Of a DNA stretch of 64,000 nt, positions 1 through 46,407 are shown in pieces. Made by a program: the position numbers and the translations under genes. Source of the DNA: Ianthella basta. Its lineage: Eukaryota; Porifera; Demospongiae; Verongiida; Ianthellidae. The notes under the pieces were generated by a model, which worked only from the letters and a program-made list of their open reading frames with translations, did not search any database and was not told the origin of the DNA. Within the stretch, counting starts at the first letter, position 1. Every line of letters begins with the position of its first letter. Location: the NCBI GenBank assembly GCA_964019415.1, contig OZ025889.1, positions 816,501 through 880,500 on the forward strand, given 5' to 3'.

Positions 1-2939
1 TCTGCTAGTATGGTCTGTCGGTCCAAGAGACGGACTTCAGGTGCAAGTGAGGATGATCGTTTCAGAGTTCCTCTTGCATGTCTGACTTTGGTGACTGGGC
101 TTTCACTTGGCTTAGGGGAATCCTCATTTTCACAAATGCAGGAGAGTGAAAGCTTTTGGAGATCACTGGCCAAGGTTGACACTGTGCATGTGCTGGCATT
201 GAATTTGGGTACCTTGCCAGTGTGATGTTTCATTGGCCAAGTTAATGTTTGTTGTGTACGGTGCACAAGGTATTTGCTGAAATGGCGTACAGGAAGGTTG
301 ACATATGGGTAGCGCTCACTGAAGAGGGCCTGCTCCTCCACCTCCACTTCCCCTCCCCTTTCGGATACAACAAAGGCTGTGGAGTAATCTTTCAGTGAGC
401 ATCCTCCAAATGACAAGCAATGTGGCAGTTCAATCCACACATCAGAGTGGAACTTGCTAACCTTCTCTCCATCTGGAGTACCTACCAACTTGGCCTCAAA
501 CTCATACACACCACTGCAAAGGACAGAACCCTCAAATACAGGATGGGAGAGGAATGTTTGGATTTCTGCCTTCTCCTTTACCAACCGAAAGGAGACCTCC
601 ACTTGCTCCTCCCCCAAAATGGCTCCAGCAGGAATGTACACCGTCACTCCATAGACAGGTGAGTACAGGACACCACCAGTGGAGGAGAAAATGGCTGACG
701 GGTTGTCATCAATGGAATAGTGGTAACTGAAGGGAGGCAAGGATGGTGCGGTCAACTTTGATGCTTTTGCAGAGTCTGGAGAGAAATGATGAGGTGCACA
801 GCAATCAATGCAAATGTGAAGCTACTCAACCTTGTCAGTTAAGGAGTGCGTAATGGCCACACGCAGTTATAGATAGTCAGATAGCTACATAGGTGCACAA
901 CAGGCTGCAAACAAAAAGTGATGTGATGTTAGTACATTGTAATATGTATCTATCATTGTCTGTTCATGCATGTCTAATACAGTGAAACCTGTCTAAGATA
1001 ACTGACTATGGGCCAGTTCTAACTGTCAGTGACCTTTATAGAGAAGTAGCTGCCATCTTAAACAGGTTCCACTACATAACAGGCATGCTGTTGACACCAA
1101 TGCAATTATTGAAAGTGCATGCATGATTGTGTATCAACACAATAGAGCGGAGAACAGCACCACTTTGGTTTCAGTTTGAAATATCAACAGTAGCCACTGT
1201 CATAACTCAGTGAAACACATTTACATAACCTATTATAGCAACAAATAATTGTATGAGAGGGTAAATGTATAAATGTACAGTGCATAAATACACATTAAAG
1301 GTATGTATGACTATTTTTTGAACAGTCCTGAGTGGCTAGGTAAGTCTTACATCATTCAAGTTTGTTCGCACTAGCCAAAATTTCACAAGTTATCCAGATG
1401 TTTCAGCAGCTTTCAGCCACCTTCATCAGTGAATGACAAAATACAGCACTCCTATAGTTTATATATAAATGTTAGTGACAGGTGATGAAATGTGGTGACA
1501 GTTGATGATGTGACCATGAATAATGTTAAAGTAACAATTTAACAGTCAATGAATTTTTGTTAGGCAGTAATAGTAGAGGTCCAATAGTAATCTACTCTAG
1601 GAGGGCAGTGTACACCTCAGGCAAGGTTCCCTTCTCCCTATTCAGTGCATCCGGGTTCCGTTGTATATGCCAACTCTCCAATAGGCAGCGTGTGGTGGCA
1701 TATGGGTGACAGTCAATTACTTCTGACTTGGTGAGATCCACCGGATGACCTGTTGCGAGGGTGTGTTCTGCGAGGGCCGATGCTGCCACATCTCCATTCT
1801 TCAGGGCACGTCTGTGTTCTGCCAGCCGGTGTTTGAGGCTCCAGCCAGTTTGCCCAATGTACACCTTGGAGCATCCATCACAAGGCACGCTGTACACAAC
1901 CCCCTCCGTTGGTCCATTGGTACTGGATCCTTGGGGTGCACAAGTAAGCTGCGAAAAGTGCTTCGTGGGCGGAAAACCACCTTGATTTCTAGCAGTGCAA
2001 GAATCCGTCTTACTGCCTCCGAAAGTCCAGCAATGTAAGGGAGGGTCAGGGTTATTCATGGTCACATCATCAACTGTCACCACATTTCATCACCTGTCAC
2101 TAACATTTATATATAAACTATAGGAGTGCTGTATTTTGTCATTCACTGATGAAGGTGGCTGAAAGCTGCCAAAACGTCTGGATAACTTGTGAAATTTTGG
2201 CTAGTGCGAACGAACTTGAATGATGTATGACTATTATATAAACTTATCCTCCTAATATTGTGCAAAGTCTATGTATGCAGTTGCCCTGATTAGGAACCAC
2301 TGTCAATAACATGCACAATGCATGAAATCCATGTATGCACACACGAATAATGTTGATAGTTACCTTAGTGTGCATGCCTCTGCTTTGAGCCCTCTCATAC
2401 CCCTGCACCCTACACATACACACACACACACACACACACACACACACACACACACACACACACACACACACACACACACACACACACACACACACACACA
2501 CACACACACACACACACACACACACACACACACTCAAAGCTGACATACCAGTAGCCACTGCACCTACAACACTCTCTTCTTCCAAACTCTTCATGTCCAG
2601 TTCAGCAGCTTCAGTCAATGCAGCTAGCAGAATTTGGTGGTTCGGTACAGACGCCGCAGACTCCTTCAGGGCCAGAAGGAAACCTCGACGGAGTGCTTGA
2701 GACTTCTTTTGCATTAAAAGTATGTGAAACGCTGTAGCTGCATCGCTCTGCGTTTTCCTCTTCAATAATATCTCTCGGCGTTCTTCAGAAATATAGCCTG
2801 ATTTCTCCATTATGGGCAGTACACTCTTCAGATTCACGAGGTTGGGAGTCATTTGACAGTTATCTCGTAGAGCATCCAGTATCCGTTTATCTTGCTCAGT
2901 CGGTTCTTTGGACACAACCTGTTCGCCTGATGTAGCCAT
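1..2939 (-). CDS. CARD-ZU5 gene, copy 1 (3' part outside window)
   Basis: First - strand member of the CARD-ZU5-UPA-DD-DD family. Exon 1 (2939..2549) encodes a CARD-like alpha-helical domain starting MATSGEQ; the donor reads CTG|GTATGT. Exon 2 starts at 775 after CTCCAG and is open to the window edge; it encodes the ZU5 domain (GGVLYSPVYGVTVYIPAGA) and the RHFS motif at 276..284, the predicted self-cleavage site. The UPA and death-domain exons would lie left of base 1. Intron 1 (776..2548) carries a Penelope-like insertion and a (CA)n tract. The start is chosen because the same MA(T/A)SGEQ start recurs in copies 2 and 3, 137 bp from the divergent Kelch start. What is seen is intact; function (adaptor or sensor in death-fold signalling) is inferred from domain families. 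Confidence 0.8.
980..1073. mobile_element. short pogo/Tc1-like inverted-repeat remnant
   Basis: CAGTGAAACCTGTCTAAGAT at the left is mirrored by ATCTTAAACAGGTTCCACT at the right, next to TA dinucleotides. This is the kind of short palindromic MITE mobilised by pogo/Tc1 transposases. It is noncoding and lies in intron 1 of the first CARD-ZU5 gene; a related repeat is in an intron near 58.55 kb. Confidence 0.45.
1390..1440 (-). ncRNA. hammerhead-ribozyme-like motif, left repeat of Penelope-like element
   Basis: Read on the - strand: CTGATGA, a 6 bp stem (GGTGGC with GCTGCT, wobbles allowed) closed by TGAAA, then GAAA, then CATC and TGGATAAC. The last segment can pair with the GTCATTCA that precedes CTGATGA as stem I. 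CUGAUGA, GAAA and NUH are the hammerhead core, and Penelope-like elements are known to carry hammerheads in their terminal repeats. The core looks complete here; cleavage activity is untested. Confidence 0.5.
1592..2083 (-). pseudogene. GIY-YIG endonuclease remnant of a Penelope-like element
   Basis: The reading frame contains GVVYSVPC, then KVYIGQTG, an RLAEH segment, AEHTLATGH, LLESWHIQ and LNREKG in the order expected of the C-terminal GIY-YIG endonuclease of Penelope-like elements. GVVY and YIG supply the GIY and YIG motifs, and the Glu of LLESWHI is the likely metal ligand. Upstream of GVVY the homologous protein (a connecting region with VVFRPRST) continues in another frame, so there is at least one frameshift near 1900-1920. 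It is a dead, short 3' piece of a retroelement, not a host gene. Confidence 0.8.
2137..2190 (+). ncRNA. degenerate hammerhead-like motif, right repeat of Penelope-like element
   Basis: The inverted partner of the left motif: CTGATGA, AGGTGGC-TGAAA-GCTGCC, then AAAACGTCTGGATAAC. The conserved GAAA is AAAA here, so the catalytic core is probably broken, while the cleavage triplet is GTC. The difference between the two repeats shows independent decay. Confidence 0.4.
2416..2533. repeat. (CA)n microsatellite beside the CARD-exon donor
   Basis: About 118 bp of almost pure CA. On the coding (-) strand it is a (TG)n run starting ~16 bp after the 5' splice site of the CARD exon. The same tract occupies the same place in all other copies of the family. 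Confidence 0.95.

Positions 2940-46407: not shown

Follow-up and report, generated by a model that had tools for sequence, protein, structure and literature searches.

The 64,000-nucleotide window analysed here, positions 816501-880500 of contig OZ025889.1 (C22) of the sponge Ianthella basta, carries a tandem array in which genes for Kelch proteins of a ubiquitin-ligase receptor type lie head to head with genes for CARD-like, ZU5 and death-domain proteins. We read this arrangement, with a probability of about 0.4, as an immune cassette whose two genes are regulated together, its cullin-type receptor controlling its autoproteolytic death-fold protein. The array comprises seven plus-strand Kelch genes of five exons each, all open: K1 (3077-5267, 445 amino acids), K2 (10047-12241, 445), K3 (16861-19366, 443), K4 (27128-29284, 443), K5 (31671-34719, 443), K6 (39269-41798, 444) and K7 (43974-46407, 446), with start-to-start intervals of 7.0, 6.8, 10.3, 4.5, 7.6 and 4.7 kb. 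Six of the seven face a CARD-like first exon on the minus strand, and the opposed ATGs are separated by spacers P1 (2940-3076, 137 bp), P2 (9910-10046, 137 bp), P3 (16761-16860, 100 bp), P4 (27047-27127, 81 bp), P6 (39137-39268, 132 bp) and P7 (43843-43973, 131 bp). The minus-strand parts adjoining these spacers lie at 2549-2939, 5829-9909, 12803-16760, 22074-27046, 35107-39136 and 43464-43842, respectively. K5 lacks a facing CARD exon and has near it a minus-strand partner-gene remnant (30239-30617) holding the ZU5 linker and the first UPA stretch. In the partner, the CARD-like exon is followed by a ZU5 exon, then by two middle exons and last by the death-domain exon, and the intron phases match. 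A further pair, numbered 8, lies on the same contig (C22:4951251-4959736), 4.1 Mb from the array, with its Kelch gene (K8) and partner both open and head to head at 100 bp; Kelch exons 4 and 5 also occur as strays downstream of K8 (C22:4946210-4949620), remnants of additional copies. The layout of six closely spaced pairs described in the original prediction is real, and we regard the layout, the family identities and the CpG-rich common start as solid.

The Kelch genes had been proposed to resemble E3 receptors, and at the family level this was supported. K1 matched PF24681 (5.5e-29, 101.5 bits against a cut-off of 50), indicating a KLHDC2-type Kelch propeller, and its alignment to KLHDC2 spanned query residues 76-366, while that to KLHDC10 covered shorter stretches. 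The propeller is thus common to the array proteins and to KLHDC2, KLHDC3 and KLHDC10, the cullin-2 receptors for C-terminal degrons, but the array proteins differ from these in their length of about 445 amino acids and in an acidic insert near the N-terminus. After the propeller, all eight copies carry LSELC(L/F)Q and LPEALAAAV, and the LxxxC and LPxxL boxes of this last exon resemble, by eye, BC- and Cul2-boxes; a search of the C-terminus from the divergent Kelch clade against PDB returned no match. The Kelch protein is predicted to act in a cullin-2 ubiquitin ligase as its substrate receptor.

The partner was confirmed in part as the CARD-ZU5-UPA-DD-DD protein that had been suggested (DD, death domain). 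It carries a ZU5 domain, which in eight of the nine copies read ends in a PIDD-type HF/S cleavage motif, and Pfam Death was found in 5/5 death-domain exons (best 3.2e-11). The first of the two proposed death domains had no Pfam match, and its profile matches were weak, whether to the second death domain (E 8.3e-5, probability 61%) or to that of RIPK1 (E 0.054). The N-terminal CARD was likewise a weak match, and no UPA domain was detected in the partner. The succession of a ZU5 and a death-fold domain is that of PIDD1, NLRP1 and CARD8, with HF/S at the ZU5 end as in PIDD (PMC3210808).

The region between the two genes has a distinctive composition. The ratio of observed to expected CpG was 0.36 in the whole window (median of 400-bp tiles, 0.29) and 0.71-1.04 (87th-98th percentile) in 400-bp segments around the six spacers. 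CpG-rich stretches lie over the start of every Kelch gene in the window, eight in number and including K5 and the divergent K9; of five further such stretches, which lie off Kelch starts, two are found where K5 exon 1 ends or just behind it. The strict kappaB-type pattern GGGGAWTYCCC occurred at three sites in the window, each within a head-to-head spacer (a palindrome at 27090-27100 in P4, 39238-39248 in P6 and 43943-43953 in P7), compared with 0.05 matches expected from shuffles, so that 3/7 spacers hold one. The looser pattern GGGRNWYYCC showed by itself no more than a mild excess in the window, with 14 matches where 6.34 were expected, and 3 of 100 shuffles reached 14. In a region of 114 kb, with 3 kb masked, it marked 11 places, six of which precede a Kelch ATG by 11-165 bp (K4, K6, K7, K10, K11 and K12; for K11, with its ATG set at 76582 and the first in-frame ATG at 76600, the distance is 130 or 148 bp). 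This proximity, which concerns 6 of the 12 ATGs of the family with paralogous starts counted separately, was reached in none of 200,000 random placements, the pattern having been noticed by inspection before it was tested. K5 has a kappaB-type site at 423 bp and K9 a near match upstream; K8 was outside the tested region, and two kappaB-type sites lie elsewhere in its own 30 kb region. Two ZU5 loci that lack a Kelch gene (5.0 and 3.3 kb) contained no such site. NF-kappaB proteins exist in sponges and are tied to immune responses (PMC13042239). The linked regulation of the two genes that had been postulated thus gains indirect support from the short spacers, the CpG-rich starts, the kappaB-type sites in some of the spacers and the distant complete pair, and shared regulation of the head-to-head partners is probable on this evidence. 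P1 and P2 are longer than P3 and P8 by a short palindrome-like insert.

These features suggest a two-gene immune cassette amplified in tandem in a non-bilaterian animal, each full unit of which would consist of one short CpG-rich divergent start with a KLHDC-type Kelch gene on one side and a CARD-like/ZU5/death-domain gene on the other. NLRP1 and CARD8 cut themselves after the ZU5 domain, and their halves remain together until the proteasome destroys the first, which an E3 ligase can bring about directly (PMC7483925). Because a Kelch gene here shares its start with a ZU5 gene bearing HF/S, a similar logic is invited. Self-cleavage of the ZU5 protein would yield a CARD-ZU5 half and a death-domain half, still associated, and the Kelch receptor would mark the first half, or a neighbour holding it, for the proteasome. 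Such marking could keep the pathway quiet or, on a trigger, free the death-domain half, much as NLRP1 and CARD8 are activated by functional degradation; we consider it equally likely that the partner is kept low at rest and that it is released.

Several observations weigh against a functional cassette of this kind. At three of the eight clade-1 Kelch loci the partner is lost or broken (pair 2 has an early stop, pair 7 a broken CARD exon and K5 only the remnant) while the Kelch gene remains open, and across the 209 Mb assembly of 96 contigs five of the 14 ZU5 genes are without a Kelch gene of this family, their loci holding open frames of 350-363 amino acids; these counts speak against taking one functional module of the two genes as established. 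Spacers P1, P2, P3 and P8 lack a kappaB-type site. Moreover, passive tandem duplication, the main rival, accounts for much of the persistence of the pairs: two unrelated genes, neighbours by chance in a compact genome, would have been copied together by unequal crossing-over, with the spacer short for lack of insertions and no common job. We regard this as a doubtful but serious account. The array is in itself plain tandem duplication, the agreement between Kelch and CARD distances is what linkage predicts, and both the undecayed Kelch genes at the three defective loci and the Kelch-less ZU5 genes fit it readily. What it does not anticipate is a whole pair 4.1 Mb away, the recurrence of kappaB-type sites beside Kelch starts in two diverged clades, and the maintenance of both genes, open and under constraint, at five of the eight loci (pairs 1, 3, 4, 6 and 8); the ratio of nonsynonymous to synonymous substitution rates (dN/dS) was 0.21-0.37 over the eight open Kelch models. 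The notion that a Kelch gene decays once its partner is lost was rejected, as K5 and K7 are open and, when compared with their sisters K4 and K6, give a dN/dS of 0.30.

The substrate pocket bears on a second alternative, in which the two genes share immune induction but do separate jobs, the Kelch receptor acting in the degradation of proteins other than its partner, such as foreign or damaged ones that bear certain C-termini, and the ZU5 protein signalling alone. KLHDC2 anchors the substrate carboxylate through R236, S269 and R241 (PMC11470957). Equivalents of this set were complete in only three of eight copies (K1, K2 and K6); in the order R236-S269-R241, the others read R-A-W (K3), G-V-R (K4), G-V-I (K5), R-A-R with an insert nearby (K7) and G-S-R (K8). 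The anchor may lie in a different blade, as it does in KLHDC3 and KLHDC10 (PMC11568203). Four of five aligned pocket columns were variable, compared with 151 of 451 columns overall, which is suggestive but was set aside as proof of an arms race. The Kelch proteins themselves end in Pro-Gly (K1, K2 and K4), a KLHDC10-type degron (PMC11568203), or in Pro-Glu (the other five copies). On the partner side, neither the predicted cut end (RHF) nor the natural end has a terminal Gly, which argues against a simple C-degron model, and the simplest version, in which the Kelch pocket reads the cut end of the partner directly, was rejected because the RHF end lacks this residue. The partner could be recognised by its CARD half or by some other degron, and direct degradation of the partner by the Kelch receptor is a conjecture. 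The missing Gly and the differing pockets are what separate jobs would produce, as are the CpG-rich common start with its kappaB-type sites and the recognition by KLHDC receptors of free C-terminal ends on many proteins (PMC11568203). Separate jobs would nevertheless leave unexplained why this Kelch family occurs in the genome only with this ZU5 family, all 12 of its genes lying on the contig of the ZU5 cluster, and we judge them unlikely. A separate and very large set of Kelch repeats was seen on contig C3 at about 3.3-13.4 Mb, with many frames of 320-400 amino acids among the matches listed. Finally, a self-recognition or guard pair, in which one product restrains the other and mismatched alleles or a lost receptor lead to death signalling, would suit linked, duplicated and diverging pairs whose CARD exon is more diverged than the Kelch protein, but it is very improbable given the intact frames of the five ZU5 loci with no linked family Kelch and the persistence of partnerless Kelch genes.

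A more ambitious version of the cassette can be drawn. The ZU5 segment shows a low synonymous divergence (dS, 0.20-0.33) even where the linker and death-domain parts of the compared genes have reached saturation, for example at 8526-9038, 37639-38124 and 62710-63222, and this difference points to gene conversion confined to the ZU5 module. The autoproteolytic protein and a cullin-2 receptor dedicated to it would then form a functional-degradation switch under one NF-kappaB-type divergent promoter, with receptor pockets diversifying to read different triggers, the self-cleavage module kept uniform by gene conversion, and the ubiquitin-ligase receptor acting as sensor in an animal counterpart of the plant sensor/executor pairs; as a whole we hold this to be distinctly improbable.

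Beyond the array, the divergent-clade Kelch gene K9 lies on the minus strand (exons 1-3 at 57971-59438, the remaining exons further left), with a minus-strand part beyond it at 60235-63534. As both are on one strand, a Kelch-ZU5 fusion gene was considered and rejected, since the open reading frames start separately and the Kelch C-terminus lies between them. The window also contains strand-biased low-complexity arrays at 49748-52073 and 53319-54421, with CCTGTCCC-type repeats (GC skew about -0.7) followed by GTGTGGG-type repeats (GC skew near +1), and no Rfam family above threshold. In COX1 on contig C96, TGA reads as Trp, AGA stands at conserved Arg sites and ATA reads as Ile, the table 4 pattern, which is that of non-bilaterian animals; this COX1 would also resemble the demosponge form, and a sponge is likely on this evidence.

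Death-fold repertoires in sponges and other invertebrates are large and lineage-specific, and include NACHT-ZU5 and UPA-ZU5 combinations (PMC12909245, PMC8195603); the word Kelch does not occur in the main text of these two papers on NLR and death-fold expansions. No description of head-to-head Kelch/ZU5 pairing was found in the literature searched, whose coverage leaves out most subscription papers. Alignment-based searches gave 29 pattern stretches for Kelch and 19 for ZU5 in genome_contigs, and 59 for Kelch in viral_contigs, none of them confirmed; these collections are prokaryotic or viral and therefore uninformative on other sponges. New here are the CpG-rich islands at Kelch starts, the kappaB-type sites, the apparent homogenisation of ZU5 and the variable Kelch pockets. 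A parallel is offered by plant paired NLRs such as RRS1/RPS4 and CHS3/CSA1, which are head to head and co-regulated and encode proteins that work in pairs (PMC9528088, PMC11298796); unlike these, neither gene here shows an NLR domain (NACHT or NB-ARC), and one is a predicted ubiquitin-ligase receptor. If the products cooperate, an early-branching animal would have hard-wired a ubiquitin step for which vertebrate NLRP1 relies on the general machinery or on a pathogen, and the pairs would offer a testable system for the restraint or firing of self-cutting death-fold proteins. Even without direct contact between them, an NF-kappaB-type divergent promoter joining a degradation receptor to a death-domain gene would be a lead into early animal immune circuitry.
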